The translations under genes and the position numbers were made by a program. From a virus, in the IMG/VR virus record IMGVR_UViG_3300029893_000044, positions 1 through 33,438 of that record: a stretch of 33,438 nucleotides of DNA; one strand, given 5' to 3'. Positions 608 through 29,183 of the stretch are shown here, in pieces (positions within the stretch are counted from its first letter, which is position 1; each line of letters opens with the position of its first letter). The notes beneath the pieces were generated by a model. It was not told where the DNA came from. It worked only from the letters and a program-made list of their open reading frames with translations, and did no database searches.

Positions 608-1057
608 ATGAACAACATGAACAAGGCATCCTCCTTCGACGACAGCAACGAGTTCGCGTTCATCCACGTCCGCCCGGGCGACGACGGCAAGTCGCACCCG
701 ATCGGCACCATCGCAGTGGAGCTCGTGCCCGTGGACGACTACTCGCGCTCGATCGACACCCACTGCGTCGGCTTCTCCGCGCAGCACGTGAAGAAGGACG
801 CGTGGATCGCGTCGCGCGGTCGCTCGATCGCGGCCGGGCGCGCGTTGCGCAGCAAGGATCCGATCCTCGTCGCGGCCCCGAAGAACGTGTCCCGACGTGA
901 GCTCATCATGCGCTCGGTCGAAGCCGTGCGCGACGCGGCCGACGAGGGCAAGATCAACGTGTCGAAGCAGTTCCGGCGCGCGCTCGCTGACACCATGGCT
1001 CGTATGGAGCGAGCCGAAGCGATCGCTCGCATGAACAACTCGTCGGCAGCGCAGTGA
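608..1057 (+). CDS. Hypothetical protein
   Basis: This 149-residue protein is not recognised. The N-terminal half (EFAFIHVRPGDDGKSHPIGTIAVELVP) looks like beta structure. The C-terminal half is basic and helical (RRELIMRSVEAVRDAADEGKINVSKQFRRAL). An ATG at 608 and another at 617 are both possible starts. Its TGA overlaps the GTG of the next gene (GTGA), so the two are probably translationally coupled. GC-rich third codon positions support real coding. Confidence 0.8.
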   Translation: MNNMNKASSFDDSNEFAFIHVRPGDDGKSHPIGTIAVELVPVDDYSRSIDTHCVGFSAQHVKKDAWIASRGRSIAAGRALRSKDPILVAAPKNVSRRELIMRSVEAVRDAADEGKINVSKQFRRALADTMARMERAEAIARMNNSSAAQ

Positions 1058-1284
1058 AGTCGCTCAAGTTCCACGTGGTGATGACGCCGAATGGCGATCG
1101 TCCCTACGTGTCGATCAACAAGCCGCAGTCGTACATCGATCACCTGGACGTCTCAGGCGAGAAGGCTGAGGTCTTCACGATCGAGGCGATGCTCCCGAGC
1201 GACGTCGACGGCGTGATCCTCGGCGGTCCGCTCACCAACGGCGCCGAGGGTCGTTTCTCCTTCGTCGCTCGGAGGATCCGGTGA
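1054..1284 (+). CDS. Hypothetical small protein
   Basis: A 76-residue protein that starts with GTG inside a GTGA overlap and ends in another GTGA overlap with the following gene. It is rich in predicted beta strands (LKFHVVMTPNGDRPYVSINKP, FSFVARRIR). I recognise no family. Tight coupling on both sides shows it belongs to the plus-strand operon that leads to the MazG-like and synthetase-like genes. Confidence 0.75.
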   Translation: MKSLKFHVVMTPNGDRPYVSINKPQSYIDHLDVSGEKAEVFTIEAMLPSDVDGVILGGPLTNGAEGRFSFVARRIR

Positions 1285-1532
1285 GGCTGTTCCTGCTCCG
1301 ACCCATCGACGACGAAGCCAAGAACCACGGCTCCAAAGCGCCGTGGACGTACGACTGCTCCTTCGGGGTCGTCGTGCGTGCGAAGGACGAGCAGCAGGCT
1401 CGCTTGCTCGCAGCGTCGGTCTCCGGCGACGAAGGGACGCAAGCCTGGCTCGACGTCGAGCTAACCTCGTGTGCGCCGCTGAAAGCCACTGGGCCGGCCG
1501 GCGTCGTGCTCCAGGACTTCATGGCTGGCTGA
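1281..1532 (+). CDS. Hypothetical small protein
   Basis: An 83-residue protein with a GTG start in a GTGA overlap with the preceding gene. The sequence opens MRLFLLRPIDDEAKNHG and contains YDCSFGVVVRAKDEQQARLLAAS. That alternation of strand and helix resembles a small alpha/beta domain, but no family is recognised. The stop lies nine bases before the MazG-like start, with a GAGGAG ribosome-binding site overlapping the stop. Confidence 0.75.
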   Translation: MRLFLLRPIDDEAKNHGSKAPWTYDCSFGVVVRAKDEQQARLLAASVSGDEGTQAWLDVELTSCAPLKATGPAGVVLQDFMAG

Positions 1533-1540
1533 GGAGTTGC

Positions 1541-1789
1541 ATGGGGTACCACACACGAGAGTTCGAGAAGGGCGAGTACGGAGAAGTCAGCAAGATCAAG
1601 GAGGAGTTCGAAGAGCTCCTCGACGCGTGTGGTCAGGGCGCGAAGCTACTGATCCTGTGCGAGCTCGCTGACATGTACGGCGCGATGTCCGGGTACGTAG
1701 AGAAGCACTTCCCGGGCATGACGATGGCTGACATCGAGGTCATGGCGAAGATGACGACGTCAGCCTTCAAAGAGGGTAAGCGGAAGTGA
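1541..1789 (+). CDS. MazG-like NTP pyrophosphohydrolase
   Basis: An 82-residue all-helical protein with the acidic metal-binding layout of the MazG/all-alpha NTP-PPase superfamily: GEVSKIKEEFEELLDA, then about 12 residues later ELADMYGAMSGY (EExxE...ExxD type). Such enzymes hydrolyse nucleoside triphosphates to monophosphates and pyrophosphate. In phages they are thought to trim non-canonical dNTPs or alter host nucleotide signals. The ATG at 1541 is chosen because GAGGAG lies just upstream; a longer open frame upstream is out of frame with the neighbour and looks non-coding. Its TGA overlaps the GTG of the synthetase-like gene. Confidence 0.75.
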   Translation: MGYHTREFEKGEYGEVSKIKEEFEELLDACGQGAKLLILCELADMYGAMSGYVEKHFPGMTMADIEVMAKMTTSAFKEGKRK

Positions 1790-2385
1790 CTATCGAGGTC
1801 AACTATCAGACCGTGTCGCGAGCGATCTCGCTGTACGCCTCGAAAGGGTACAAGTACGTCGACACACCGTGGTACGTCACAGCCGCTGCGATGTCAGCGA
1901 CGTTGCCTTCAGATCGCGTCGGCTTCAGCATGTGGCATCCAGAGCTACCGCACGACAAGTTCCTCGTCGGCTCGGCTGAACAGGGTTTCCTCCAGCTGAT
2001 GCTGGACGGCACGATCCAACCAGGCAGCTACTGCTCCGCGGGGCCGTGCTTCCGCGACGAACCAACAGTGGATGAGCTCCACCGCTACAGCTTCTTCAAG
2101 CTAGAGCTGATCAAGATCTACGCTGCAAACGAGGTGCCTGAGCTGCTCGACGTCTGGAAGATCGCGCACCTCGTGAAGGACGTGCACGCCGACCTCTACT
2201 GGCTCGGTGAAAAGAGCAAGAAGCAGCTGCGTGTGGTCAAGACCGACGTTGGGTACGACCTGGAGCTCGCGGGCGTCGAGGTCGGCTCCTACGGGCTCAG
2301 AGAGCACAACGGTCATCGCTGGCTGTATGGCACAGGTCTGGCTCTCCCAAGAGCTCAGATCGCCCGATCGCGTGTGGTACTGTGA
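1786..2385 (+). CDS. Stand-alone class II aminoacyl-tRNA synthetase-like core
   Basis: A 199-residue protein with all three class II motifs in order. The motif 1-like segment GYKYVDTPW has its proline near residue 28. Motif 2 reads CFRDE (88-92) followed by HRYSFFKLELIK. Motif 3 reads YGTGLALPR with its arginine at 189. The fold activates an amino acid with ATP. There is no anticodon-binding or editing domain, so it is about half the size of normal synthetases and resembles class II paralogs that act on other acceptors. The substrate cannot be read from the sequence. GTG start in a GTGA overlap with the MazG-like gene. Confidence 0.7.
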   Translation: MTIEVNYQTVSRAISLYASKGYKYVDTPWYVTAAAMSATLPSDRVGFSMWHPELPHDKFLVGSAEQGFLQLMLDGTIQPGSYCSAGPCFRDEPTVDELHRYSFFKLELIKIYAANEVPELLDVWKIAHLVKDVHADLYWLGEKSKKQLRVVKTDVGYDLELAGVEVGSYGLREHNGHRWLYGTGLALPRAQIARSRVVL

Positions 2386-2399
2386 AAAAAGGAGAGAAC

Positions 2400-2729
2400 A
2401 TGGGACTCGACATGAACCTGTACGGCGTGGAGACGGATGGCTCGAAGATCGAGCTCGGCTACTGGCGCAAGCACCCGAACCTGCACGGTTTCATCGTGGA
2501 GTCGTTCGCGGGCGGCGTCGACGAGTGCCAGAAGATCCCCATGTCTCTGCAAGACATCACGCTCACGCTGGCAGCGGCCACGAAGGACATCCTGCCCGAG
2601 ACGACCGGCTTCTTCTTCGGGCAGAGCGGCTCGCACCACCGTGAATCCACTCTCGAGACGCTGAACGCTGCGCTCGTCTGGCTCGGGGAGAACCCGAAGC
2701 GTAAGGTGTACTACCGCGCTTCGTGGTGA
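2400..2729 (+). CDS. Conserved phage protein of the MGLDM...YWRKHPNLHG type
   Basis: A 109-residue protein that begins MGLDMNLYG and contains IELGYWRKHPNLHG, DECQKI, TTGFFFG and the terminal YYRASW. I recall this combination as a widespread phage family of unknown function. The ATG at 2400 is preceded by the strong site AAAAAAGGAGAGAAC, which decides the start over an in-frame GTG at 2382. It follows the synthetase-like gene directly and is co-transcribed. Histidine, cysteine and aromatic residues are conserved as I remember the family, but no catalytic role is established. Confidence 0.8.
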   Translation: MGLDMNLYGVETDGSKIELGYWRKHPNLHGFIVESFAGGVDECQKIPMSLQDITLTLAAATKDILPETTGFFFGQSGSHHRESTLETLNAALVWLGENPKRKVYYRASW

Positions 2730-2982: not shown

Positions 2983-3615
2983 TCAGGTCGATTCCGGGTC
3001 TTTGATCCAAGTTTTGAACTTGCGAATCGACCCGATTGTCGTATGAGCTACACCTAGCTCTCTTCCTAACGCTCTGTTGCTAAGTGTCGATGAACGAATG
3101 TGGTCGACAAGGTCCCACGTAAGTTTTGCCGAAGAACTCTTTTCTCCTGCACACTTTCCACGACGTCTCTCGCTGATCTTGGCACGTACTTCAGGACGCG
3201 CCGTCGGGCTATTCTCTCCTGTTACTTCAGGTCGAACGCGTCCTGTCAAAGCTCGACGAATGCGTTCTCGTGTTTCATCTGAGACAACGCGACCTCTCAT
3301 ACGAGCACGTGCAGCATCGTCGTGCTTCATCCCTGCCCATGTACCTCCTAGAGGCACGAGGTTGGCTCCCCATCCTCCGGATGAGACGCAAGTGTTGTAC
3401 GCTGCGATCAATGAACTTTCGTGCTCAAACGCGAAGCTCTCGTCCCGGGTACTAAGCACCAACTCTCTGTGTTGACCGTGCTTCTTGGCGATACGCTTCC
3501 ACAGCTCGTTGCGTCTGGTAACGTCTCTCGTTCGATCCAATGTACCTTTGCCGACGTAAAACGGTCGACCATCGTCAGTGCGATCAACGTAGACGTAGAA
3601 GATCACGGAATCCAT
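2983..3615 (-). CDS. GIY-YIG homing endonuclease, 'VDxT' subfamily
   Basis: A 210-residue protein. The N-terminal GIY-YIG-type nuclease core reads IFYVYVDRTDDGRPFYVGKG, with a likely catalytic arginine in DRTRDVTRR and glutamate in FEHESSLI. A middle section carries NUMOD3-like repeats (SDETRERIRRALTG, RPEVRAKISERRRG). The C-terminal DNA-binding helix-turn-helix reads ALGRELGVAHTTIGSIRKFKTW. It is a paralog of the copies at 6928 and 25327. Its ATG overlaps the last 13 bases of the methyltransferase gene and its stop touches the converging gene's stop. The 7-mer GATCAGG occurs at both flanks (2981 and 3623), possibly by chance. Confidence 0.9.
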   Translation of the reverse strand: MDSVIFYVYVDRTDDGRPFYVGKGTLDRTRDVTRRNELWKRIAKKHGQHRELVLSTRDESFAFEHESSLIAAYNTCVSSGGWGANLVPLGGTWAGMKHDDAARARMRGRVVSDETRERIRRALTGRVRPEVTGENSPTARPEVRAKISERRRGKCAGEKSSSAKLTWDLVDHIRSSTLSNRALGRELGVAHTTIGSIRKFKTWIKDPEST

Positions 3616-4187
3616 TTCAAGAGATCAGGCGTTTCCATTTGACGCAACCACTTGGTTCGATTCTCGACAAGATCGTTCCAAGTCAGAGTATCGAATGGTT
3701 TTGCGACGATCAGCTGATCAGTGTTTGGTCGGACGCGGATGATTCCCATTCCCATGTCGAAAGTCGAACATGCACAGTCAAGATCAGGACGAGTTCTGAT
3801 TTCGATGTAAGCGCGCCACACGTCGCCGCACCAGCCTCGTTGGTTGCCCTGTGGAACCCTCTGACGCTCTTCCGACGGCGGGTCGCAGTCGTGCATGACG
3901 ATCGTCCCTCCAAGGTTGAGCCTGACGAGCGCGTTGTCGATGTCACGTAGTACTTGTTCACGCTCGTGCAAGCCGTCGACGAACACCAGGTCGAACTTCT
4001 GATCGTGCGCCGCGAAGTACTGATCGCTGGTCATGCGCAGGGTGCCGCCTCGCTGCGGGTCGACGCCGACCTTCGTCTGAGCCTCGACGCGGTCGAAGGT
4101 TGTGTTCCCCTTACAGCCGATCTCGAGGTACGAGGCGTAGCTGAACTCCGCGATCAGCCAATTTAGCAAGTGCCATGTTCTATCCAT
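3603..4187 (-). CDS. Class I SAM-dependent methyltransferase (Methyltransf_24-like)
   Basis: A 194-residue Rossmann-fold methyltransferase. The SAM-binding motif I is YLEIGCKGNTTF (residues about 20-31), followed by VGVDPQRGG, FDLVFVDGLHE and the strand-4 motif LGGTIVMHDCDPPSEE. This order matches the methyltransferase 24 family, which often acts on small molecules, sugars or lipids; the acceptor is unknown. The gene sits between two GIY-YIG genes and overlaps both (4180-4187 and 3603-3615). Its start region (MDRTWH) resembles the start of the upstream GIY-YIG gene (MERTAH). No strong ribosome-binding site is visible before the ATG. Confidence 0.8.
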   Translation of the reverse strand: MDRTWHLLNWLIAEFSYASYLEIGCKGNTTFDRVEAQTKVGVDPQRGGTLRMTSDQYFAAHDQKFDLVFVDGLHEREQVLRDIDNALVRLNLGGTIVMHDCDPPSEERQRVPQGNQRGWCGDVWRAYIEIRTRPDLDCACSTFDMGMGIIRVRPNTDQLIVAKPFDTLTWNDLVENRTKWLRQMETPDLLKWIP

Positions 4188-4677
4188 TGTTTAACTTTCG
4201 ACGAGCGTAAGATTCTCTCATTTTTGCGCGTGTTTCCTCACTATGTGGATGTCGAACACGTAGTTTAGCAGATTGGGACATCCGACCGCGTGTTTCTTGC
4301 GAAACTATCTTGCCGGTTTGAATCTCTGCCATCTTACGTCGTGTCTCTTGAGAATGAGACCGACCTGTCCACGTATCACCACCGTCACCACCATCAGTAT
4401 GATTGGTTAGATCAGCACCCAACTCTTTGAAAAGCGCAATCAACTCACGTTCACGCTGATCAACAACGTCTGGTGTGCATGTCTCCAAAGAAAAGCATGC
4501 CGGTTTCAAGCCTTGCTCTTTTAGTTGACGCAACCACATATTCTTGTGCGTTTTTGAAGTAATGCGAGCCAAGTGCTGATTGATGCGTTCGTTCAACGGT
4601 TGAACTGTTTTGCCGATATACCTCAAATACCCGGTGCGTGGGTCGAACAAGCCATAAACATGTGCTGTCCGTTCCAT
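4180..4677 (-). CDS. GIY-YIG homing endonuclease
   Basis: A 165-residue protein. The GIY-YIG core reads HVYGLFDPRTGYLRYIGKT followed by NERINQH, with a glutamate in ERELIALF. Three or so NUMOD3-type repeats follow (SQETRRKMAEIQTG, SQETRGRMSQSAK, SEETRAKMRES). It is the closest relative of the copy at 31805 (both have YGL.DPR.G.L.YIG and a WLR.L...GLKP segment). Base composition is visibly richer in A and T than its neighbours. A TAGGAT box lies 7 nt upstream of the ATG. It is inserted between the small gene ending at 4688 and the methyltransferase, on the same strand. Confidence 0.9.
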   Translation of the reverse strand: MERTAHVYGLFDPRTGYLRYIGKTVQPLNERINQHLARITSKTHKNMWLRQLKEQGLKPACFSLETCTPDVVDQRERELIALFKELGADLTNHTDGGDGGDTWTGRSHSQETRRKMAEIQTGKIVSQETRGRMSQSAKLRVRHPHSEETRAKMRESYARRKLNNG

Positions 4678-4978: not shown

Positions 4979-5235
4979 GCCTTGAGCGTGTTGCTCGGCG
5001 CGATCTCGTACGGGTACACCCAGCCGGTGAGCAGCTTGCCGTCGACGGGGACTTCCACCATGTACGCTGTCATCTTCTGGTCCTTCGACTCGATGACGTG
5101 CAGCACCTTAGCGGTCATGTCCTTCTCCACCAGCGCTCCCTCATGGAGCTTCTGATCGAGCAAGCTCTTACCGTCGTCGCTGATGCGACGCAGCCGAGCA
5201 CCAGAAACGAGCGTGATCCTCTGTCCTTTGTTCAT
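4975..5235 (-). CDS. Small beta-rich protein coupled to GroEL (co-chaperonin candidate)
   Basis: An 86-residue protein whose ATG overlaps the GroEL stop (ATGA), so the two are almost certainly co-translated. It looks like a small beta-barrel: alternating strands (QRITLVSGARLRRIS, GALVEKDMTAKVLHVIES, TAYMVEVPVDGKLLTGWVYPYEI) with short turns. It has none of the sequence hallmarks of GroES. Size, predicted beta content and position are what one would expect of a diverged co-chaperonin such as T4 gp31, which also lacks clear sequence similarity to GroES. That role is inference; an SH3-like accessory protein is equally possible. Confidence 0.8.
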   Translation of the reverse strand: MNKGQRITLVSGARLRRISDDGKSLLDQKLHEGALVEKDMTAKVLHVIESKDQKMTAYMVEVPVDGKLLTGWVYPYEIAPSNTLKA

Positions 5236-6887
5236 GACTTTTCCTCTTTCGGTTCGTGCACCACCGCGTCCAGCTGAAGGAAGATGCCCGCGACGCTGAC
5301 AGCGTTCTGCAACGCGCAACGAGTCACCTTGACCGGATCGATGATGCCTGCGGCGCGGAGGTCGACGATGTCGGCCTTCACAGCATCCCAACCACGGTTC
5401 GGTAGCACGATGTCTTGGCACCGTGAGACGACCACGTCTGGGGATTGACCCGCGTTTTTCACGATCCTACGTAGGGGTGCTGTACAGGCTTCGAGAACAG
5501 CCTTCACGCCAGCTGCGTAGCCGTCGCCCTTGGCGATGTCCTTCGCGATGCCGTCGCTCTGCTCCAGCTCACGCTTGATGCGCAGGAGCGCTTGCCCGCC
5601 ACCCGGGACGATGCCCTCTTCGAGGGCCGCTCGTGCCGCGTGGAGCGCGTCCTCGATGCGGTACTTCTTCTCCACGAGCTCCAGCTCTGTAGCTCCACCC
5701 ACGCGGACGATGGCCGCGCCAGACGACAGCTTCGCCAGGCGACGCTTGACGGCGTCGACGTCCTCGCGCGACAGGCTGACGTTGTCCAGCTGCGAACGCA
5801 GCTCCTCGACGCGCTTGGCCACACGGTCCTGCGCGTCTGGGCGTCCGACGATCGTGGTGACGCGGGCGTCGACGACCGCCTTCTTGACACGGCCGACGTT
5901 CTCGAGCTTGACAGCGTCGACCTTGACGCCGCTGGAGACGGTCGGGTGCGTCCCGCCGACGAGCGCGATGAGGTCGTTCATCTGCGCGTCTCGGTCGGCT
6001 CCGACGCCGGGGAGCTTGACAGCGACGACAGGGAGGCCGTTGGTCGCTTTGTTGATGACGAGGCCTTGCATCGCGTCTCCGTCGACCTCTTCAGCGATGA
6101 TGAGGAGCGGCGTGCGGTTGCGAGCGCAGCTCTCTAGCAACGGGACGAGATCCTTGAGCGACGAGACCTTGCGATCGGTCACGAGGACCGCACAATCCTC
6201 GTAGACAGCGCGCATCTTCTCTTGATCGGTGACGAAGTACGGGCTGAGGTATCCGCGTTCGAACCGTAGACCCTCGACGATCTCCACAGAAGTCGCGCTC
6301 GAACGAGCGTTCTCGACTGCGACGACGCCATCGACGCCGGTCTTGTGGATAGCTTGAGCGACGAGCTCGCCGATCTCCTTGTCGCCGTTGGCGCTGATGG
6401 TCGCGATGTCACGAAGCGCCTCTTCGGTGTCGATCTTCTCGGCGATCTTCGGGAGCCGGTCCAGCACGAGCGCCGCAGCGTCGTCCATGCCGCGCTTCAC
6501 TTCAGCTGGCTCGAGGCCGGCGCTGGAGTACTTGACGACGCTCGACACCAGCGCGCCGGTGAGCACGCTGGCTGTGGTCGTGCCGTCGCCGGCTTCGTCG
6601 TTGGTGCGCGAGGCAGCTTCGCGGACGAGCTGCGCTCCCATCCTCTCGACCGGATCGACCGGGTCGACAGCTTTGCTGACCGTCACTCCGTCCTTGGTGA
6701 CGACCGGTGATCCACCCTCTTCGCCCTGTAGAATGACGCACTTCCCGCGCGGACCGAACGTCGCGCCGACGGTGTCGACCGCGAGGTCCAACCCAACTTT
6801 CAGACGCTTCGTCGCGTCAGCGCCGCGGACAACCACCGAACGACCCAGTCTCGGACGTCCTTCGCCTCTTCCGTCTTGTTCGAACAT
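5232..6887 (-). CDS. groEL: Phage-encoded GroEL-type chaperonin (HSP60)
   Basis: A 551-residue protein that covers a whole group I chaperonin. The equatorial N-terminal region reads DATKRLKVGLDLAVDTVGATFGPRGK. The ATPase motif GDGTTTAS has its conserved Asp near residue 101. The apical domain includes EGLRFERGYLSPYFVTD, and the C-terminal equatorial part includes GGATELELVEKKYRIEDAL and EEGIVPGGGQALL. It folds client proteins in an ATP-driven ring, in phages usually virion proteins. The N-terminus is about 12 residues longer than E. coli GroEL, and the C-terminus (HEPKEEKS) lacks the usual Gly-Gly-Met tail. ATG 6887 is preferred over an in-frame TTG at 6914. No recognisable groES is in the window. 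Confidence 0.95.
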   Translation of the reverse strand: MFEQDGRGEGRPRLGRSVVVRGADATKRLKVGLDLAVDTVGATFGPRGKCVILQGEEGGSPVVTKDGVTVSKAVDPVDPVERMGAQLVREAASRTNDEAGDGTTTASVLTGALVSSVVKYSSAGLEPAEVKRGMDDAAALVLDRLPKIAEKIDTEEALRDIATISANGDKEIGELVAQAIHKTGVDGVVAVENARSSATSVEIVEGLRFERGYLSPYFVTDQEKMRAVYEDCAVLVTDRKVSSLKDLVPLLESCARNRTPLLIIAEEVDGDAMQGLVINKATNGLPVVAVKLPGVGADRDAQMNDLIALVGGTHPTVSSGVKVDAVKLENVGRVKKAVVDARVTTIVGRPDAQDRVAKRVEELRSQLDNVSLSREDVDAVKRRLAKLSSGAAIVRVGGATELELVEKKYRIEDALHAARAALEEGIVPGGGQALLRIKRELEQSDGIAKDIAKGDGYAAGVKAVLEACTAPLRRIVKNAGQSPDVVVSRCQDIVLPNRGWDAVKADIVDLRAAGIIDPVKVTRCALQNAVSVAGIFLQLDAVVHEPKEEKS

Positions 6888-6894
6888 CAAGGCG

Positions 6895-6900
6895 ATAGTA
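6895..6900 (-). promoter_or_regulatory. TACTAT box 7 nt before groEL ATG
   Basis: On the minus strand TACTAT lies exactly 7 nt before the groEL start codon. It fits the TANNNT pattern seen at other non-overlapping starts in this window. It could be a -10 element for a nearly leaderless transcript. No convincing -35 element is seen. The box is in the 40-bp gap between groEL and the divergent GIY-YIG gene. Confidence 0.35.
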
Positions 6901-6927
6901 GGCCTTTTCGGCAACTAACTTACCCAC

Positions 6928-7587
6928 GTGAACAAGATCTTCTTCGTCTATGTTGACTGGACGCTCGAAGACGTTCCACGTTGCTTCTACGTTGGAAAAG
7001 GCAACGAAGCACGCGTTCGAGAACACAAACGCAACCTCTACTGGCAACGCGTCGCATGCAAGTACGGCTGGCGTCGCGAAGTGGTGTTTGTCACTAAGGA
7101 AGAGAAAGCCGCACTCGATTTAGAGATTGAGCTTGTAGCGCATCACAAGACGTACAGATACGACAATATCGATCGTTGGGGATGCAATTTCACGAGAGGT
7201 GGAGATGGAACAAGTGGTCACAAACACTCAAAGGAACACCGATCGCAAATCTCAGGCGAGGGCAACCCGTTTTACGGCAAGAAGCATTCAGAGGAGTTCA
7301 AGCGTCGCTTGAGCGACGAACGAAAAGGCGAGAAATCACTGTTATTCGGGAAACGTGGCTGCGAGATCGCCCACTTCGGTCGCAAGCACAGTCTCGAGCA
7401 ACGCAAGAAATTTGCTGGTGAGAATCATGGTTGGGCGAAGATGACGTGGGAGAAAGTTGACGAGATCCGACTTCGACATGCAAATGGCGAATCTCAAGAC
7501 GAACTGGCTCGTGCATTCAACGTGAGCCGACCAACGATCCATTACATTGTCAGATACAAGACGTGGAAGCTAGAAATTAGAGCTTGA
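6928..7587 (+). CDS. GIY-YIG homing endonuclease, 'VDWT' subfamily, antisense to its operon
   Basis: A 219-residue protein. The GIY-YIG core reads IFFVYVDWTLEDVPRCFYVGKG, then ARVREHKRN, and the catalytic-type glutamate is in LDLEIELVAHH. The middle contains WGCNFTRGGDG and NUMOD3-like repeats (HSEEFKRRLSDERKG). The C-terminal helix-turn-helix reads DELARAFNVSRPTIHYIVRYKTW. It starts with GTG, and TAACTT lies 6 nt upstream. It is the close paralog of the copy at 25327. It lies on the plus strand inside a minus-strand operon, between the 3' end of the 7577-7840 gene (11-bp antiparallel overlap) and the groEL start. Its composition is less GC-rich than its neighbours. Confidence 0.92.
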   Translation: MNKIFFVYVDWTLEDVPRCFYVGKGNEARVREHKRNLYWQRVACKYGWRREVVFVTKEEKAALDLEIELVAHHKTYRYDNIDRWGCNFTRGGDGTSGHKHSKEHRSQISGEGNPFYGKKHSEEFKRRLSDERKGEKSLLFGKRGCEIAHFGRKHSLEQRKKFAGENHGWAKMTWEKVDEIRLRHANGESQDELARAFNVSRPTIHYIVRYKTWKLEIRA

Positions 7588-8049: not shown

Positions 8050-8253
8050 TCAAGCCTCGTGTGGCTTGAAGAAGTTGCCGACGATGACGCCGTCGATGTC
8101 GCGGTAGACGTGGAGCATCATGGCTCCGACGCGTTTCGTGTGCTGGTACTCGAGCGGTCTAGAGAGCGGCTCGAGCCTTTCGCTTGGCCACTCGCGCCAT
8201 TCCTCGACCTGAGGGTCCCAGATCGCCCACGAACCGTCGACGACGCTCGACAT
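8050..8253 (-). CDS. Hypothetical protein
   Basis: A 67-residue protein (MSSVVDGSWAIWDPQVEEWREW.. ending GVIVGNFFKPHEA) of unknown function. An in-frame ATG at 8334 would add 27 basic residues. I prefer 8253 because the upstream stretch coincides with the displaced 3' end of the glycosylase gene in another frame. Even so it overlaps that remnant by about 95 bp. The codons from 8253 onward have GC-rich third positions. It is followed immediately by the small membrane-protein gene. Confidence 0.6.
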   Translation of the reverse strand: MSSVVDGSWAIWDPQVEEWREWPSERLEPLSRPLEYQHTKRVGAMMLHVYRDIDGVIVGNFFKPHEA

Positions 8254-8350
8254 CTGGATCAGGGCCCCAGCCTTCTTCCGGCCAGAGACCTTCTTTCGCT
8301 TCGTTCGTGATAGCAGTGTTTTCAGCCACTTCATGTTGCCAGTAATCCAT
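8159..8350 (-). pseudogene. Displaced 3' coding end of the MBD4-like glycosylase gene
   Basis: In this frame the minus strand encodes DYW, then 16 residues, then GLWPEEGWGPDPDVERRRRF and a basic tail ending at TAG 8159. The same string, DYW..GLW..GW..DPDVE.RR.RF, forms the C-terminus of the intact glycosylase at 8967. The two copies are separated by the GIY-YIG gene and share the 10-mer GGATTACTGG at the junction. The simplest reading is that this is the original 3' end of the glycosylase gene, cut off by the insertion. An ATG happens to precede DYW at 8350, but there is no ribosome-binding site and independent translation is unlikely. Confidence 0.75.
8339..8348 (+). repeat. 10-bp direct repeat, left junction of GIY-YIG insertion
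   Basis: CCAGTAATCC on the plus strand, repeated exactly at 9084-9093. The two copies are 745 bp apart and bracket the GIY-YIG gene. Both encode G/D-Y-W of the glycosylase on the minus strand. It marks the point where the glycosylase reading frame was split. Confidence 0.75.
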
Positions 8351-8364
8351 AACTACTTGTGATC

Positions 8365-9090
8365 ATGCGATACATCTACGTTATCAGATGCTTACTTGAC
8401 GAGAAACTCTACGTAGGACAGACTGTCCAACGACCTGAACGACGCTTTGCTCTTCATTGGAACCAAGCTTGTCGAGGTCATGGTTACTATCTCCACCGAG
8501 CGATGCGAACGCACGGAAAAGAACATTTTGAATGTCATGTCATCGAACAGTGTTCTGACGAACAAGCAGATGACAGAGAAAAGTACTGGATCAACGAGTT
8601 TGGAACTCTTGATCCAACGCGTGGTTACAACTTAGAAAGCGGCGGTAACGTCGCCAAGACGATCAGTACTCAAACTCGTCAGAAGCAGAGCGAAGCTGCT
8701 CGACGTCGGTTCGAACAGATGACACCTGAACAACGAGAAACGTGGAACGCGTCATTGCGAAAACGACCACCGTGTACAGCTGAACAGGCTAGAAAGATCT
8801 CAGAGTACCATCGAGGTCGTCCAAAGTCGCTTGAACACAAGAAGAAGATCGCTGCGGCCCGTTGTCGACTTGCTGAAGAGTACTTCGAAACAGTCGCACG
8901 TGCTTACGAAGCCGGTAGCTCTGTTGTACAGTTATGTGAGCAATACTCGGTAGGTTCAAGTTCGATCTATACAGCTTTGCGACGTTTCGGACTGCTTCCA
9001 CTTAGAAAACGTGCCCGCCGATCTTCAACATCAGGATCTGAAGGCCATCCGTCCTTGAGCCATAACCCTGATTGCGCCTCAACCCAGTAA
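8365..9090 (+). CDS. GIY-YIG homing endonuclease inserted in a glycosylase gene
   Basis: A 241-residue protein. The GIY-YIG core reads RYIYVIRCLLDEKLYVGQT, followed by RPERRFALHW and a glutamate in DREKYWINEF. It continues with GYNLESGG, NUMOD3-like segments (TAEQARKISEYHRGRPKS) and a helix-turn-helix-like C-terminus (VVQLCEQYSVGSSSIYTALRRFG). A GTG at 8359 is an alternative start. The last ~40 residues (LRKRARRSSTSGSEGHPS..) are encoded opposite the glycosylase C-terminus, a 124-bp antiparallel overlap. The nuclease frame there looks like read-through of sequence selected on the other strand. See the insertion finding. Confidence 0.92.
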   Translation: MRYIYVIRCLLDEKLYVGQTVQRPERRFALHWNQACRGHGYYLHRAMRTHGKEHFECHVIEQCSDEQADDREKYWINEFGTLDPTRGYNLESGGNVAKTISTQTRQKQSEAARRRFEQMTPEQRETWNASLRKRPPCTAEQARKISEYHRGRPKSLEHKKKIAAARCRLAEEYFETVARAYEAGSSVVQLCEQYSVGSSSIYTALRRFGLLPLRKRARRSSTSGSEGHPSLSHNPDCASTQ

Positions 9091-9473
9091 TCCGAAAGAG
9101 CGTGGTCGTTCGGACAGACATCACCCAGCTCCTCTAAGAAAAATATCCTCCAGCAGTCGAACGCGTACTCTCCTACGCCAGGTAACTCACGCGCGTCCTG
9201 CCACCAGATCCCCTGGTAAGCGTCAGCGAACTGGATGAGGCGTTTCGCTCTCTGCTTCTGGAAGCCTAGTGGCTGGAGCAGATCGACGAGGTCCTCCTCG
9301 ACTGCGCGCGCCATGTCGTAGGCGCACGGGTACTTCTCGAAGAGCTTGTCGACCACTCCACGGACCTGCTTGCCGCGCGTGCGGTTGAGCAGCAAGCAGC
9401 AGACGAGCACCTTGAACTCGTCAGGGTAGTAGTCCTCTTGAATGAGGCGTCGGAGCGAGCGGACAGGGATCAT
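8967..9473 (-). CDS. MBD4-like HhH-GPD DNA glycosylase with replaced C-terminus
   Basis: A 168-residue protein of the helix-hairpin-helix glycosylase superfamily. It resembles the catalytic domain of MBD4: LVCCLLLNRTRGKQVRGVVDKLFEKYP, LLQPLGFQKQRAKRLIQFADAY, the hairpin ELPGVGEYAFDCWRIF, then DVCPNDHALSDYW. The Asp in CPNDH (about residue 123) aligns with the catalytic Asp of MBD4. It would excise damaged or mismatched bases such as T or U opposite G. The C-terminus after DYW is encoded by the GIY-YIG element; the older version lies at 8159-8350. ATG 9473 is chosen; a GTG at 9479 is possible. It follows the AAA ATPase gene. Confidence 0.85.
   Translation of the reverse strand: MIPVRSLRRLIQEDYYPDEFKVLVCCLLLNRTRGKQVRGVVDKLFEKYPCAYDMARAVEEDLVDLLQPLGFQKQRAKRLIQFADAYQGIWWQDARELPGVGEYAFDCWRIFFLEELGDVCPNDHALSDYWVEAQSGLWLKDGWPSDPDVEDRRARFLSGSSPKRRKAV
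9084..9093 (+). repeat. 10-bp direct repeat, right junction of GIY-YIG insertion
   Basis: Second copy of CCAGTAATCC, 745 bp from the copy at 8339. It lies inside the intact glycosylase gene at the DYW codons, where the ancestral and replacement tails diverge. Confidence 0.75.
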
Positions 9474-9509
9474 TCCCACGGATCTTCTGCTTCGGCCTGC
9501 TCCGGAGCT

Positions 9510-10700
9510 TCACCCCTCCTCGCCGTAGTTCTCCATCAGCTCAGCGACACGCTGCTGGAGCTCCTTGACGCTCGCGAGAGCGCGGTCGGCTCCGAGGACA
9601 CGGCGACGGGTGATGTACTCCTTCACGAACGCGACCGGCCAGTCCTTCACGAGCTCGAGCGCGTCGTCAGCGTACTCGCCGAGCAGCTTGCGCATCGCCA
9701 CCTCGTCGAGCTTCGACACGTAGACGACGTCGTCGAAGCGTCCGGGGCGCTTGAGCGCGTCAGCGAGGCTGCTGAGGTGGTTGACCGTGGCGAAGACGAG
9801 CCTGACGCGACGGTGGAGCATCTCCATCATCTCGAAGAGAGCGAGCTGAGAAGCGGATCGGTCGAGGTCGTCGAAGATGATCGCGTCGGGTTCGAAGATG
9901 CTGATGATCTCTCCGACGGACTCGGTCCCGAGGAAGCCGATGTCCTCCACACGAACGCGCAGGCTACGGACGTCGAGCTTCTCGCAGACCGTGCGCGCCA
10001 GAGTGCTCTTCCCGGTCCCGGCAGGTCCGTGGAACAGGATGGTGCGCTTCACGCCGTGCGCCGCGTACGCTTTCAGGTCCGTGACCCAGTCGTCAGCGAG
10101 GGTCGAACCCACAGAGCTGACGATGTCATCGGTGACGACGCGCACCTGTCCGCCGGATCCAGAGCCACGCGGAGCCTTGATGCTCATCGCGTCGTAGTTC
10201 TTCTCTACAGCGCTGAGGACGATGCGGTTCGGGTCGATGGTCTTCCACAGGAGATCGCGGACGAACTTGACGCTGGCTTCGTAGCTGTCCACGTGGGCCA
10301 AGATGTCGGTCGTCGTGTTCTCGTTGTTCTCTTTCACCCAGCCGATGCGTACACCAGGCTTCGAGATGAGCATGACGGTGGTCGTGCCGGCGTGGTTGAC
10401 CTTGATCCGCGACGTGACGTGAGGCTCGAGGATCTCGAGCAGCTGATCCTTGATGCACGACGGGAACACGCGTCGCCAACCGTTGCGATCGAGCACGTCG
10501 TAGAAGTACAGATCGTCGCCGGTCATGGTGCGCGCGACTGAGAGGAGCGCTTCGACGACGTTGAAGGGGGTCGGGTTCATGACCGCCTTGCCGACGACCT
10601 CGACGGACTTCATGCTCTTCTCGAGTAGGTCGTCCCACCCAGAGTTCTTGAAACGTCGAACGTAGAAGTCCCACTTCAGCTTCATGTCGTTGTTGCTCAC
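9510..10700 (-). CDS. AAA+ ATPase (BCS1-like)
   Basis: A 396-residue protein. The first ~200 residues are unknown and may be a recognition or adaptor domain. The AAA+ module follows: Walker A HGPAGTGKST (about 224-233), Walker B AIIFDDLD (about 273-280), sensor 1 FATVNHLSSL and the RPGRFDDVVYV box typical of BCS1/katanin-type AAA proteins. It ends in a helical lid with the coiled segment ALASVKELQQRVAEL. It should use ATP to remodel a protein or nucleoprotein partner. GTG 10700 lies in a GTGA overlap with the Fpg gene and has GGAGG six bases upstream, so it is favoured over ATG 10685. It lies between two DNA glycosylase genes. Confidence 0.85.
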   Translation of the reverse strand: MSNNDMKLKWDFYVRRFKNSGWDDLLEKSMKSVEVVGKAVMNPTPFNVVEALLSVARTMTGDDLYFYDVLDRNGWRRVFPSCIKDQLLEILEPHVTSRIKVNHAGTTTVMLISKPGVRIGWVKENNENTTTDILAHVDSYEASVKFVRDLLWKTIDPNRIVLSAVEKNYDAMSIKAPRGSGSGGQVRVVTDDIVSSVGSTLADDWVTDLKAYAAHGVKRTILFHGPAGTGKSTLARTVCEKLDVRSLRVRVEDIGFLGTESVGEIISIFEPDAIIFDDLDRSASQLALFEMMEMLHRRVRLVFATVNHLSSLADALKRPGRFDDVVYVSKLDEVAMRKLLGEYADDALELVKDWPVAFVKEYITRRRVLGADRALASVKELQQRVAELMENYGEEG

Positions 10701-11551
10701 TCGTTGCCTCCCTGAACCTCGGGGACCCACCACACGGTGCGTCCGTTCTTGTCTTTGCGGCGCTCTACGGCGCGACCTGCGGGGTCTGTGATCCTACCGT
10801 ACACCTCGAGGAAGTCGACGTGATCTCCTCGTTCATCTTCTCCTCCGTAGAAGTTCTCCAGCGTAGCTCCTCCTCGAGAGTACGATTCCTTCATGACGTT
10901 CGCGACAGCCGTGCACAACGATTCCCACACCTTGTCTGGCATGTTGATGACGAGCCGATCGGGGTGAACGCGAGCCCGGTACATCACTTCCGCGCGGATG
11001 TAGTTGCCGACGCCAGCGAAGACGTCCTGCATCAAGAGCACATCGCAGATGCGTTTCTTCGCGTACTTCATGGCTCTGAGCCTGGCTTTTCCAGACGTCA
11101 TCGGCTCAGCTAGAGCGTCCCATCCGAGCTCGTCGAGGCGTGACGTGGCCTCTCGCGTCGACACAACCCGGAAGTTACCGAAGCGTCGCTGATCGTCGTA
11201 GTACACTGGGAGCATGCCTCGGGTCGGAGGCTTCTCGCACCACAGCCTGAGAGCGGTGTGTTTGCCTTCCTCTCGCGTCCAACGACCGGACATGCCGAGC
11301 GTCGCGATCGCGGAGAGTTCATCCTCGAAGTCGAGGACGATCACCTTTCCACGACAACGCACGTTCGTCACTCTCTTGCTCTTCAGCTCGTCTAAGCGAG
11401 CGATCGGCTGCTTGATGAAGCGCCCGAACTGCTCTACGTCGCGCACGACGCAGTCCAAGATGCTGCTCTTCAACCAGTCGGCGGTGCGGCGAACTTCAGG
11501 CCCCTCGGGTGGAGGCCTCGAGGACTTCGCGGATGCGGATGATCTGTGCAT
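10697..11551 (-). CDS. Fpg/Nei-family DNA glycosylase with lost native start and zincless finger
   Basis: The family body is complete, about 270 residues from PEGPEVRR (the normal Fpg N-terminus) to the end. It has RCRGKVIVLDF (beta-loop lysine), LGMSGRW, DDQRRFGNF and the H2TH segment QDVFAGVGNYIRAEVMYRARVHP. The terminal hairpin VYGRITDPAG...NGRTVWWVPEVQ keeps the arginine but has none of the four zinc cysteines. The codon before the catalytic proline is CCA, not ATG. The nearest in-frame ATG (11551) would add a 14-residue leader and bury the Pro1 nucleophile needed for base excision. The adjoining GIY-YIG gene ends inside the first codons, so the insertion probably destroyed the start. Confidence 0.8.
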   Translation of the reverse strand: MHRSSASAKSSRPPPEGPEVRRTADWLKSSILDCVVRDVEQFGRFIKQPIARLDELKSKRVTNVRCRGKVIVLDFEDELSAIATLGMSGRWTREEGKHTALRLWCEKPPTRGMLPVYYDDQRRFGNFRVVSTREATSRLDELGWDALAEPMTSGKARLRAMKYAKKRICDVLLMQDVFAGVGNYIRAEVMYRARVHPDRLVINMPDKVWESLCTAVANVMKESYSRGGATLENFYGGEDERGDHVDFLEVYGRITDPAGRAVERRKDKNGRTVWWVPEVQGGNE

Positions 11552-12110
11552 GCTTGACTGTACGACTGTACTTTGCACTGAGCTCTGCGAACGTGAACTC
11601 TCCAGTTTCGTAGTCACGAAGGATCGAACGCATCGTCTCTTCGTCGAGTCGAACCCCTTGCTTGCGCCGTCGATACGTCTTCTCGTACTCCTCAGTTCCA
11701 GGGACGAGCTTCCTACCCTTGTTCCAAGGTTCGCGACCGGTCAACTCTTGGATTCGCTTCTCGCGCTGTGCTGCCGTCAATTTTCGACCGTGACACTTCT
11801 GGCTGATGAGTCGCTTTGTTTCCTCAGTGTGCCGATCGTTAGGGCCGAATCCACCTGTGCCTTCGCTCATGTTGTAGAACTCTTCTGATCGTACTGCATC
11901 GAAGTAGGCAATCCAGAACTTCTCACGATCGATGAGATGACGCATGTCACGACACTTCTCTAGGTTGATCCGTTCGAAGTTGTGGCGACCGTACTTGCGA
12001 ATCGCTTGCTTCAAGAAGGTACCAGAACCCAAGTAATCTCTCCTATCAGTGGAATCACGGCCCACGTAACCTCGACCGTTAACGAGGTTGATCGTCAAGT
12101 AGACGTACAT
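11496..12110 (-). CDS. GIY-YIG homing endonuclease truncating the Fpg gene
   Basis: A 204-residue protein. The GIY-YIG core reads YVYLTINLVNGRGYVGRDSTD, then YGRHNFERINLEKC with glutamate in DREKFWIAYF. The middle has NUMOD-type segments (HTEETKRLISQKCHGRK, QREKRIQELTGREPWNKGRK). The C-terminal DNA-binding part (RSILRDYETGEFTFAELSAKYSRTVKHAQIIRIREVL) closely resembles the copy at 12831. A TTG at 12128 is in frame, but the ATG at 12110 is more likely. The final codons (ASTRGA, stop) are read from Fpg gene sequence in another frame. The gene lies between the divergent 12168 gene and Fpg. Confidence 0.9.
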   Translation of the reverse strand: MYVYLTINLVNGRGYVGRDSTDRRDYLGSGTFLKQAIRKYGRHNFERINLEKCRDMRHLIDREKFWIAYFDAVRSEEFYNMSEGTGGFGPNDRHTEETKRLISQKCHGRKLTAAQREKRIQELTGREPWNKGRKLVPGTEEYEKTYRRRKQGVRLDEETMRSILRDYETGEFTFAELSAKYSRTVKHAQIIRIREVLEASTRGA

Positions 12111-12167
12111 GCTCTTAGCTATGCCCAAGAGACCGGTCTTTCAGGCAAACATGGTAGATTCCATAGC

Positions 12168-12760: not shown

Positions 12761-12901
12761 ATGACCAAGACACCTGGCACCATCATCAAGATCTTCGGAG
12801 CGACGCTGTTCGTCGTCCTCCTCGGCGCGTTCATCTGGTCGCTGACACGACCGCCCGTGACGCACGGCCCGATGCCCGACCCGTGGCACGAGACGCGCTG
12901 A
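12761..12901 (+). CDS. Small single-pass membrane protein (46 aa)
   Basis: This short gene follows the previous stop by three bases. It encodes a short polar N-terminus (MTKTPGTIIK), a transmembrane helix (IFGATLFVVLLGAFIWSL) and a proline-rich C-terminal tail (RPPVTHGPMPDPWHETR). That topology suits a spanin-, holin- or antiholin-like envelope protein, but no family is recognised. The neighbouring envelope genes (zinc proteases and endolysin, 13585-15960) fit a lysis role. The last 71 bases overlap, antiparallel, the 3' end of the GIY-YIG gene. Confidence 0.6.
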   Translation: MTKTPGTIIKIFGATLFVVLLGAFIWSLTRPPVTHGPMPDPWHETR

Positions 12902-13619
12902 TCAACTTTCGACGGTATCGTTCGAGCACTTTGCGGTTGATCACACGCTTGTAACGAGCTGACAGCTCAGCGAAATTAAAGTTACCGGTCTCGTGATCGG
13001 TCAATACTTGACGCATCAGTTCTTCGTCAGCGAAGACAGGTTTTCTCCTTTGAGAAGCGGCGATCCGCATTCGCTGTTTTGTCTCATCCGAATGACGTCG
13101 TCCAAGCATTGGAGACGGAAGTTGATCTCGTACTGCGCGATACGCTTCCTTGAGTATCGCGATTTGAATTTGCGTCAGCTTCTTACCGGGTTTGCCGAGT
13201 CGAGGCCCAGGTATGCCTCGACGCTCAGGTCGCGCTCGACCCTTCCAGTAAGCAGATATCCGTGCTCTGGATTGTTCGGACCACACGCACCCTCGCGAAC
13301 CATCGCCGCCATCTGTGAGATTGTAGAGAGGAACACCTTGTTCTCTCAAGAACACTACCCAATCGCGTTCTGACGCGAACGCTTCCTCTTTCGAGGAATG
13401 CCAACTGACTATCCACCACTCAAAAGCATCACCGCCGTGCTTCGCTAACGCGGCATGGAAGTAGGTCTTGCTACCGCGTTTAGCGAGCTTGATGTGATCC
13501 TTCCAACGTCTTTCTGGAAATGCTGCCTTCCCAAGGTAAATTCTTCCTGACGCTTGATGCTGAACAGCGTACAGCGCGTGAGGTTTACAAGGAACAACGG
13601 ATGAAGGCTGTAGGATCAC
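12831..13619 (-). CDS. GIY-YIG homing endonuclease
   Basis: A 262-residue protein. The GIY-YIG-type core reads HALYAVQHQASGRIYLGKA (degenerate YLG), followed by PERRWKDHIKLAKRG and glutamate in SERDWVVFL. Then come LTDGGDGSRG, NUMOD3-like repeats (WSEQSRARISAYWKG, HSDETKQRMRIAASQR) and a DNA-binding end (RQVLTDHETGNFNFAELSARYKRVINRKVLERY) shared with the copy at 11496. It starts with GTG, with TAGAAT 8 nt upstream. The first codons overlap the protease 3' end by 35 bp. The last ~24 residues run antisense through the small membrane-protein gene and are probably accidental read-through after insertion. Confidence 0.88.
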   Translation of the reverse strand: MILQPSSVVPCKPHALYAVQHQASGRIYLGKAAFPERRWKDHIKLAKRGSKTYFHAALAKHGGDAFEWWIVSWHSSKEEAFASERDWVVFLREQGVPLYNLTDGGDGSRGCVWSEQSRARISAYWKGRARPERRGIPGPRLGKPGKKLTQIQIAILKEAYRAVRDQLPSPMLGRRHSDETKQRMRIAASQRRKPVFADEELMRQVLTDHETGNFNFAELSARYKRVINRKVLERYRRKLISASRATGRASGRASRAVVSATR

Positions 13620-19998: not shown

Positions 19999-20352
19999 TC
20001 ACCACTCGTCTCTACGGAATCCTGGGAATACTTCCTCGATCTTCCGTTCGATGTTCTTCTCGAGGTCGCTGATGACGTCGTGGAGCTTGCTGACGCCGTT
20101 CTCTCGGAGAAGCTCGTGAGCCTTGTCCTGCAGCATCCGGTCGTGCTGTCGCTCCAGCTCGTCCATGAAGTGCTTGAAGTCGACGGCGACTCCATTGATC
20201 TTGATCTCGACCTCGACGTCGCTGTTCGCGCCAGGGACCACGTTGAACTTCTTGCAGAAGTCCTCGGACTTCGGCGTCTCCTCCGTCATGACGTGCATGA
20301 CAGCGATCGCGAGGAAGCTGTTCTTGCAGAGATCTTCGACTTTGATCTTCAT
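19999..20352 (-). CDS. Hypothetical protein
   Basis: A 117-residue protein. It has strand-rich parts (MKIKVEDLCKNSFLAIAVMHVM, DVEVEIKINGVAVDFKHFMDEL) followed by a long coiled-coil helix (ERQHDRMLQDKAHELLRENGVSKLHDVISDLEKNIERKIEEVF). The ATG overlaps the HNH gene stop (ATGA), so the HNH gene either coevolved with this junction or inserted precisely at it. No family is recognised. Confidence 0.75.
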   Translation of the reverse strand: MKIKVEDLCKNSFLAIAVMHVMTEETPKSEDFCKKFNVVPGANSDVEVEIKINGVAVDFKHFMDELERQHDRMLQDKAHELLRENGVSKLHDVISDLEKNIERKIEEVFPGFRRDEW

Positions 20353-20906
20353 GACGTCTCCAGATACTCGAGCGCTCTCCTTAGAAAGAGCACGTTGTCC
20401 TTGAACTGTCCAAGTCCGCTGTTGCAATTGAAACAGAGCAGACCGCGAATCTTGTTCGTCGCATGACAGTGATCAACATGAAAACGAGGAGTAGGACCTG
20501 GATCATCGGATCCACAGATCTTGCAACACCCACCTTGATCCAACAAGCGTCGTTCGTACTCTTCCAACGTGATGTCGTAGTCGCATTTCAACCTGACGTT
20601 CAAACGAACTCGAGCGCCGCGTTCCGTCTTGTTGTAAGCCTTTCGTGACTGCTTCCAGATCTCAGAAGCCTGGTACGCTTTGCGACGTGCTTTCTCTTTC
20701 GGGGAAGCATGATAAGCTTTTCGCCACTCGCGACTCTTTTCTGAGTTGATGTACGCTTCTCGTTTCGCTCGGCCTTCAGGTGACTCCTGATACGCTTTCA
20801 CACGTGCACGAACACAGACTTTACACTGTGACATCTTTCTGTCACCTTGGCGATGGAAGTCCTTTTCGACATCCTTCGCAAGTCCGCATTTTGTGCACAC
20901 TTTCAT
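20349..20906 (-). CDS. HNH endonuclease of the endonuclease VII type (probable homing nuclease)
   Basis: A 185-residue protein. An N-terminal zinc knuckle (KVCTKCGLAK...SQCKVCVRAR) leads into four or five imperfect 13-15-residue helical repeats (KAYQESPEGRAKREAY, KAYHASPKEKARRKAY, KAYNKTERG). The C-terminal HNH core, CCKICGSDD...FHVDHCHATNKIRGLLCFNCNSGLG, matches recombination endonuclease VII, with a DH catalytic pair and CxxC zinc ligands. In phage genomes such genes often behave as free-standing homing nucleases. It is less GC-rich than neighbours. TAGAGT lies 8 nt before the ATG. Its stop overlaps the next start. Confidence 0.88.
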   Translation of the reverse strand: MKVCTKCGLAKDVEKDFHRQGDRKMSQCKVCVRARVKAYQESPEGRAKREAYINSEKSREWRKAYHASPKEKARRKAYQASEIWKQSRKAYNKTERGARVRLNVRLKCDYDITLEEYERRLLDQGGCCKICGSDDPGPTPRFHVDHCHATNKIRGLLCFNCNSGLGQFKDNVLFLRRALEYLETS

Positions 20907-25368: not shown

Positions 25369-26082
25369 GTTCTCACCTTACCTTCGAACGATCAACAAGC
25401 GAACCGCGTCTACTTCATTTACGTCGACTGGACGACGGATATCTCTCCTAAACCCTTCTACGTCGGGATGGGCGACAAGCACCGTGTCGGGCTTCGAGAC
25501 CGTAACGAACTGTGGAAGCGTGTCGCAGCGAGGCACGGATGGCGCCGTGAAGTAGTTCTTGCGACTAAGTCCAAAGAGTTCGCATTCGAGCACGAAATAG
25601 AGCTCATCGAAACTCTGAAGACCTACCACTACGACAGTGAAAACGGGTGGGGCTGCAACTTCACTCGCGGCGGAGACGGCAGCAACGGAGGCTACCGACA
25701 CACGAAAGAGTACTACGAGAAGCACACCGGCGTTAACCACCCGATGTACGGACGACCCAACCCAAAGCTCGCCAAACTCAATGCCGAGTGGAAGGGCCCT
25801 ACGCACCCACGTTACGGTAAGAAGCACACCGACGAGACACGAGCCAAGATCGGTCGCGCCAATCGCCTCGCGCTCATCGGCAAGAAGCAATCAGCGAGCA
25901 CGATTCAAAAACGCTGCGGCGAATGGAATGCTCGCGCGTTGCTCTCTTGGTCAGATGTTCATGAGATCCGACGCCTACATGCGATCGGCGAGACGTGTGC
26001 ATCGATCGCCGATCGCTTCGGCGTGAAGTGGCAGGTCGTCTACAAGATCGTGACGTACAAGACCTGGAAGATCATCCCGTAA
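25327..26082 (+). CDS. GIY-YIG homing endonuclease, 'VDWT' subfamily, start codon unclear
   Basis: The conserved protein begins about 25405 with RVYFIYVDWTTDISPKPFYVGMG. It continues with the catalytic region (FEHEIELIETLKTYHYD), WGCNFTRGGDG, NUMOD-type repeats (HTDETRAKIGRANR) and a C-terminal helix-turn-helix (IADRFGVKWQVVYKIVTYKTW). It is the close paralog of 6928-7587. No ATG, GTG or TTG lies just before the conserved part. The nearest upstream in-frame start is GTG 25327, inside the divergent exonuclease gene; the next downstream ATG would remove the GIY motif. The native start was probably lost on insertion. It overlaps the 3' end of the 26072 gene by 11 bp, antiparallel. Confidence 0.85.
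   Translation: MSEVLEVDNQRLTHVLTLPSNDQQANRVYFIYVDWTTDISPKPFYVGMGDKHRVGLRDRNELWKRVAARHGWRREVVLATKSKEFAFEHEIELIETLKTYHYDSENGWGCNFTRGGDGSNGGYRHTKEYYEKHTGVNHPMYGRPNPKLAKLNAEWKGPTHPRYGKKHTDETRAKIGRANRLALIGKKQSASTIQKRCGEWNARALLSWSDVHEIRRLHAIGETCASIADRFGVKWQVVYKIVTYKTWKIIP
25375..25382 (-). promoter_or_regulatory. GGTAAGGT box before exonuclease gene
   Basis: An exact 8-mer placed 6 nt before the ATG, repeated at identical spacing at 26368 and 26811. It holds both an SD-like AAGGT and a TANNNT core (TAAGGT). Confidence 0.5.
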
Positions 26083-28865: not shown

Positions 28866-29183
28866 TCAGTCCTCCAACTTGTAGATGTACATGGTCGGCA
28901 CGTCGTGCGCTGAGACAGCGTACGAAGGCGCGCTGTCACCGACCGTCACTCCGGTCTTCTGACACGCGTTCGAGATCTTGTCCCAGATCGTTTCTTCGAC
29001 AGAAGCGCGGTGGGTCGCGCCAGCGAGCAGCTGGCACACGTTCCCTTCGACCGTCTCGCCTTCCTCTTTGACAGGTGTGCTGAGGCCGAACACGTCACGG
29101 AGGAACTCCAGCTCGTCGCGCGTGAACGGCACGTCGATGGTGGAGGCGCTCGCCCCAGGCTTCGCGCGCTTCTTAGGCGACAT
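28866..29183 (-). CDS. Hypothetical protein
   Basis: A 105-residue protein (MSPKKRAKPGASASTIDVPFTRDELEFLRDVFGLSTPV...) with a basic N-terminal tail and a predicted helix-rich core. ATG 29183 is chosen; an in-frame ATG at 29192 would add three residues. Its first 11 bases overlap the 3' end of the GIY-YIG gene. The original upstream neighbour was probably the gene ending at 29961. Function unknown. Confidence 0.75.
   Translation of the reverse strand: MSPKKRAKPGASASTIDVPFTRDELEFLRDVFGLSTPVKEEGETVEGNVCQLLAGATHRASVEETIWDKISNACQKTGVTVGDSAPSYAVSAHDVPTMYIYKLED

Follow-up and report, generated by a model that had tools for sequence, protein, structure and literature searches.

A GIY-YIG homing endonuclease gene within a predicted DNA glycosylase gene of an uncultured phage, accompanied by an inferred replacement C-terminus

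Free-standing homing endonucleases are thought to be confined largely to the spaces between genes, or to need introns or inteins, because entry into a gene destroys it. The free-standing seg and mob endonucleases of T-even phages, which include GIY-YIG nucleases adjacent to conserved DNA-metabolism genes, lie mainly between genes and spread by intronless homing, in which break repair is accompanied by co-conversion of flanking sequence and one-sided events can be joined at microhomology (PMC2988022). A homing endonuclease gene can also be found within a conserved phage coding region, as with mobE in Aeh1 nrdA, mobA in T4 gene 60, and seg43 in gene 43 of Aeromonas phage 25, where both halves of the split gene remain in use as two polypeptides (PMC2988022). 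A different arrangement is represented by the mobile ORF (mORF) elements of fungal mitochondria, found in Allomyces macrogynus atp6, Glomus atp6, atp9, cox2, and nad3, Rhizopus atp9, and Mortierella cox2 (PMC3630166 and references therein). In these a homing endonuclease ORF is inserted in a gene together with a diverged homologous 3′ end of that gene, so that the new end is in frame and the native end lies beyond the endonuclease. Here, we describe a similar arrangement in a 33,438-bp virus record (IMG/VR record IMGVR_UViG_3300029893_000044, G+C 59%), the whole of which was analyzed and is referred to as the window.

A preliminary description of the window, made from sequence alone, claimed that a GIY-YIG element is inserted in a glycosylase gene and supplies it with a foreign, homologous C-terminus encoded opposite the nuclease, displacing the gene's own 3′ end. 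The observation itself is confirmed: the ORFs at 8967-9479 and 8159-8350 on the minus strand and at 8359-9090 on the plus strand are all present, and the 10-mer CCAGTAATCC (minus strand GGATTACTGG) occurs twice, 745 bp apart from start to start. Two details were refined. The tail opposite the nuclease has 38 codons after DYW, rather than about 39, with the nuclease stop codon lying within the repeat, and the second, orphan tail overlaps another minus-strand ORF. The glycosylase gene and the nuclease gene face each other and overlap by 124 bp, and the remaining minus-strand genes of the region are a Fpg/Nei-type glycosylase, an AAA ATPase, and small ORFs down to a GroEL-type chaperonin. Coordinates are collected in the table.

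Features of the glycosylase–nuclease locus, other features of the window, and related loci in other records
Record	Positions	Strand	Feature	Evidence
Window	9094-9479	-	Body of the MBD4-like HhH-GPD DNA glycosylase gene up to the repeat; GTG at 9479, possible ATG at 9473	Pfam HhH-GPD, E 1e-9
Window	9084-9093	-	GGATTACTGG, copy 1; codons of DYW in the last core helix, at the junction of body and current tail	Sequence; structural model
Window	8967-9083	-	Current, inferred foreign, C-terminal tail (38 codons and stop; stop codon 8967-8969), antisense to the 3′ end of the nuclease gene	Homology to orphan tail; composition
Window	8365-9090	+	GIY-YIG homing endonuclease gene; ATG at 8365, GTG possible at 8359; stop TAA at 9088-9090 inside the repeat	Pfam PF01541, E 1.5e-12; phrog_314, E 8e-34; TIGR01453 (group I intron endonuclease subfamily) above cut-off
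Window	8349-8364	+	16-bp leader between the second repeat copy and the nuclease start codon	Sequence
Window	8339-8348	-	GGATTACTGG, copy 2; DYW codons in front of the orphan tail	Sequence
Window	8159-8338	-	Orphan, inferred native, C-terminal tail of the glycosylase (59 codons and stop), still open	Homology; joined frame; composition of the region
Window	8050-8334	-	94-aa ORF overlapping 176 bp of the orphan tail in another frame; probably the next gene of the operon	Codon composition; no family hit
Window	5232-6914	-	GroEL-type chaperonin	
Window	9510-10733	-	AAA ATPase	
Window	10697-11617	-	Fpg/Nei-type glycosylase	
Window	11496-11617		End of a GIY-YIG gene (11496-12128, minus strand) inside the start of the Fpg/Nei gene	
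Window	2983-3615, 4180-4677, 6928-7587, 11496-12128, 12831-13619, about 25370-26082, 29173-29934, 31805-32434, 20349-20906		Eight further GIY-YIG-like genes and one HNH-like gene	Judged mostly from sequence
L231 (record G022)	815-2452		Complete foreign gene, GIY-YIG gene, and orphan native 3′ end	
L159	2815-4395		Decayed N-terminal remnant, GIY-YIG gene, and complete methyltransferase-like gene with a homologous N-terminus	
L008	4661-5524		Relative of the window nuclease	
L009	4643-5506		Relative of the window nuclease	

To determine whether the two tails are homologous, we compared their translations. After DYW at 9084 the gene reads VEAQSGLWLKDGWPSDPDVEDRRARFLSGSSPKRRKAV and a stop codon, and after DYW at 8339 the same strand reads QHEVAENTAITNEAKEGLWPEEGWGPDPDVERRRRFVGDLGPSGRGMARVAKRKARAAL and a stop codon, the two sharing EA..GLW...GW..DPDVE.RR.RF. 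Their local BLOSUM62 score is 90, whereas 20,000 shuffles reached at most 59 and about 20,000 random pairs of open frames from the window reached at most 60; in a BLASTP comparison of the nuclease flanks the E value was 6e-8. Over 24 aligned codons the first, second, and third positions match in 13, 16, and 6 cases, respectively, so that the similarity is in the protein with silent sites randomized, indicating two old relatives, both kept under selection in this frame, rather than a recent duplicate. Homology stops at the repeat on the upstream side, where the orphan copy reads VVM and the gene reads ALS, and joining the two flanks gives a single open glycosylase frame ending with the orphan tail. 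The repeat alone is weak evidence, since about 2% of random pairs of 101-bp stretches from the window share an exact match of 10 or more.

The profile of 36 relatives of the glycosylase hit MBD4 chains at E 7e-50, and an AlphaFold2 model (mean pLDDT 86) had human MBD4 (6vjw, 38% identity) as its best Foldseek match. The last core helix in the model (residues 126-136) contains most of DHALSDYW, the Asp of which is the catalytic one, placing the insertion right behind the most conserved C-terminal motif; homing endonucleases prefer conserved sites. The current tail adds one more predicted helix (residues 149-160, pLDDT about 75 or lower). MBD4-like glycosylases are widespread in environmental phages (341 candidate stretches in viral contigs), while records of known phages hold very few. 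Among 80 IMG/VR loci with a relative, none has such a tail, most ending within about 10-40 residues of DHALxxYW, and no convincing tail duplication was detected among the relatives. Several of those records share other genes with the window (Fpg, AAA ATPase, and 5′-3′ exonuclease), and many of the contigs run to 100-370 kb, so the window is probably a piece of a large phage.

The nuclease has the conserved residues of the GIY-YIG catalytic domain (Y5, Y16, G18, R27, E72, and N89 invariant in the alignment) and a separate C-terminal helix-turn-helix (HTH_7, residues 153-204, E 0.0015, below Pfam's own cut-off), as in I-TevI/Seg-type homing endonucleases. The HTH match ends at about 8970, where the stop codon of the tail lies, so the two functional units abut, and the last ~39 codons of the nuclease are probably just the reverse of the tail. 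A relative of this nuclease (about 39% over 173 aa, among the closest found) lies about 1.2 kb downstream of the same glycosylase gene, between genes, in related phages at loci L008 and L009. The window is heavily infested, with ten homing endonuclease genes in 33 kb. One of the other GIY-YIG genes ends inside the start of the Fpg/Nei gene, where PPEGPEV has no Met codon before it, so that the start giving the catalytic N-terminal proline seems to have been lost. Of the ALTERNATIVES checked, an intron found no support, as there was no Rfam match on either strand even at E 1, and none of the other homing endonuclease genes in the window has homologous protein ends on its two sides.

To determine which tail is native, we searched for uninterrupted alleles. 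Searches for close relatives using the glycosylase, the AAA ATPase, and the nuclease found none; tail motif patterns in viral and genome contigs matched only unrelated proteins, such as S41 peptidases; and TBLASTN searches of phages with the tail gave only chance hits. No relative with either tail, empty or occupied, was found, and no uninterrupted allele joining the body (...NDHALSDYW) to either the orphan tail (QHEVAENTAITNEAKEGLWPEEGW) or the current tail (VEAQSGLWLKDGW) exists in the collections searched, so the assignment of native and foreign at this locus rests on composition and position and is not proved by descent. GC at third codon positions (GC3) is 100/129 (0.78) in the gene body, 13/38 (0.34) in the current tail (Fisher p 2e-6), and about 0.43 in the nuclease, whose third positions face those of the tail. 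The maximum-likelihood low-GC segment is 8291-9146, with 2-lnL bounds of 8247-8333 and 9009-9199. The current tail therefore shares the background of the nuclease, whereas the orphan tail lies in DNA of host-like composition, although the boundary is not resolved to the repeat and the last 20 codons of the body have a GC3 of 0.60. The orphan tail seems overprinted on the next gene: the 94-aa ORF has a GC3 of 0.86 outside the overlap and 0.76 within it, against 0.49 in the tail frame. This ORF is not significantly similar to the small gene that follows the glycosylase in relatives.

To determine whether the arrangement is a one-off, we compared the protein ends on the two sides of about 135 other GIY-YIG genes, in an initial set of loci and further sets of 30 and 26, with some overlap between sets and a few loci skipped. 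A control at 120 random positions in other loci had its strongest hits in two loci, one of them clearly a true tandem paralogue, and each candidate was therefore read by eye. Further hits at L286 (an overlap artifact), L294 (an apparent tRNA array), and L103 and others (short) were judged spurious, and two cases stand out. The first, better documented than the window itself, is L231 in record G022 (also the record of locus L082; 137,772 bp), which carries a complete conserved gene (222 aa, RuvC-like by eye only, with no Pfam match), then a GIY-YIG gene on the same strand, then an orphan 3′ end comprising the last ~65 codons. The orphan is 84% identical in DNA over 173 bp to the uninterrupted gene of record G017, and the match begins at ATGAAACAAATTT, the last codons of the nuclease, so there too the resident sequence supplies the stop of the nuclease. 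In protein the orphan is 81, 73, and 69% identical to G017, G018, and G035, respectively, whereas the complete gene is only 36-39% identical to them (36.5% to G017), although they are 76-89% identical among themselves, and the glycosylases place G022 with G017 at 78%. Thus, in G022 the remnant is native and the complete gene is foreign along its whole length. The second case, L159, is a mirror image in which a decayed 5′ remnant (MSIDKDTGIWSIDTANK..., residues 3-47, two stops) lies upstream of a GIY-YIG gene and is followed by a complete methyltransferase-like gene; no match was found in phages by which its ancestry could be resolved.

The most likely reading of the window, to which we give a probability of roughly 0.58, is that a GIY-YIG element of about 745 bp, carrying a homologous but foreign 3′ end of the glycosylase on the strand opposite the nuclease, entered the glycosylase gene of a large phage at the DYW codons, just after the catalytic-Asp motif DHAL. 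Its insertion would have left a full-length gene with a substitute C-terminus and pushed the native C-terminus past the nuclease as an untranslated or barely translated remnant. The inferred route is a nuclease-made break in an empty allele, copying of the element from a donor, and rejoining at short homology or at the repeat, after which the split recognition site and diverged tail would protect the occupied allele; a nuclease break, co-conversion, and one-sided repair joined at microhomology are provided by work on T4 (PMC2988022). The anatomy of the locus, the homology and age of the tails, their composition, the lack of an intron match, and the same outcome with resolved ancestry at another gene of another phage are established by the analysis, whereas the identity of the native tail and of the donor, mobility, cleavage at GGATTACTGG, resistance of the occupied allele, expression of the orphan tail, and activity of the hybrid enzyme are inferences. 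The interpretation in the preliminary description is accordingly supported only in part: a foreign tail that came with the nuclease and was joined to a resident body is the best reading of the composition, but replacement of more than the tail is not excluded. Neither of the outcomes set beforehand as counting against it was observed, since the alignment is far above shuffled sequences and no relative with the current tail alone was found. Its comparison with Allomyces atp6 is accurate (PMC3630166), and its statement that none is described in phages agrees with our literature searches, which covered an open-access library only.

The main rival, which we consider unlikely but which gains weight from G022, is that the whole gene or most of it was replaced during intronless homing, the body, tail, and nuclease of the donor arriving together by co-conversion and the remnant marking where incoming DNA was joined to the resident gene at microhomology, so that the nuclease does not carry a tail as such. 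This is what happened in G022, L159 shows the mirror case, and one-sided, microhomology-mediated repair in homing is documented for T4 (PMC2988022). However, the body in the window has host-like GC3, unlike the tail and the nuclease, and the remnant begins exactly where the two tails diverge. In either reading the presumed functional gene would end in foreign sequence with the native end displaced. Much less likely is that two glycosylase paralogues or tandem copies existed and that the nuclease or a deletion removed nearly all of the second; tandem paralogues do occur in these phages, but the relatives examined show no convincing duplicated tail, and the orphan homology starts precisely at the DYW repeat and restores one frame when joined. 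A metagenome assembly chimera of two strains joined in the nuclease gene is similarly improbable: the window is a 33-kb fragment for which no reads or close relatives are available, but the piece with the orphan tail would still hold a nuclease 16 bp from DYW, so an insertion in that gene is needed anyway, and G022 shows the same arrangement in an independent record. A group I intron or other spliced element, with the current tail as read-through, is least likely, because, although GIY-YIG nucleases are common in group I introns and this one passes the TIGR01453 cut-off, no intron was recognized by Rfam, the nuclease is on the opposite strand, and read-through into an intron would not be homologous to the exon beyond it.

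More tentatively, GIY-YIG homing endonucleases of large phages may travel as cassettes with a homologous end, or a whole copy, of the gene they enter, so that they can enter conserved coding sequence without killing it. Displaced remnants of native gene ends on either side of the nuclease would then be the general footprint, at 3′ ends in the window and G022 and at a 5′ end in L159. Carrying a spare gene end is another way for a homing endonuclease to enter a gene, known from fungal mitochondria but not, in the literature we could search, from phages. It makes chimeric genes with foreign termini, a source of hybrid proteins and of gene transfer between distant phages, and leaves a footprint of displaced homologous termini flanking a nuclease gene that can be looked for in all phage genomes.

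Compared with MBD4-type thymine/uracil DNA glycosylases, the host gene encodes the same predicted HhH-GPD fold but has an extra C-terminal helix, the tail, that is not present in MBD4 chains or in the phage relatives. Compared with the split genes, the locus likewise has a homing endonuclease within a conserved phage coding region, but the distal part appears to be replaced in cis by a homologous new end; the orphan tail has only 59 codons, and an ATG directly precedes its DYW at 8350. Compared with the seg and mob endonucleases, a GIY-YIG nuclease is again associated with a conserved DNA-metabolism gene, but here the insertion is inside the gene and a remnant persists, whereas no displaced end of the target gene is described there (PMC2988022). 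The fungal mORF elements (PMC3630166) share with this locus an endonuclease ORF and a homologous 3′ end inserted within the host gene, with the new end in frame and the duplicated end only distantly similar in DNA. At this locus neither the donor nor an empty allele was found in the collections searched, and a displaced end matching an uninterrupted relative was seen only in G022, where the body is foreign too. The locus differs from the fungal elements in being in a phage rather than a mitochondrion and in having a nuclease that is antisense to the gene, with its 3′ end overlapping the new tail.
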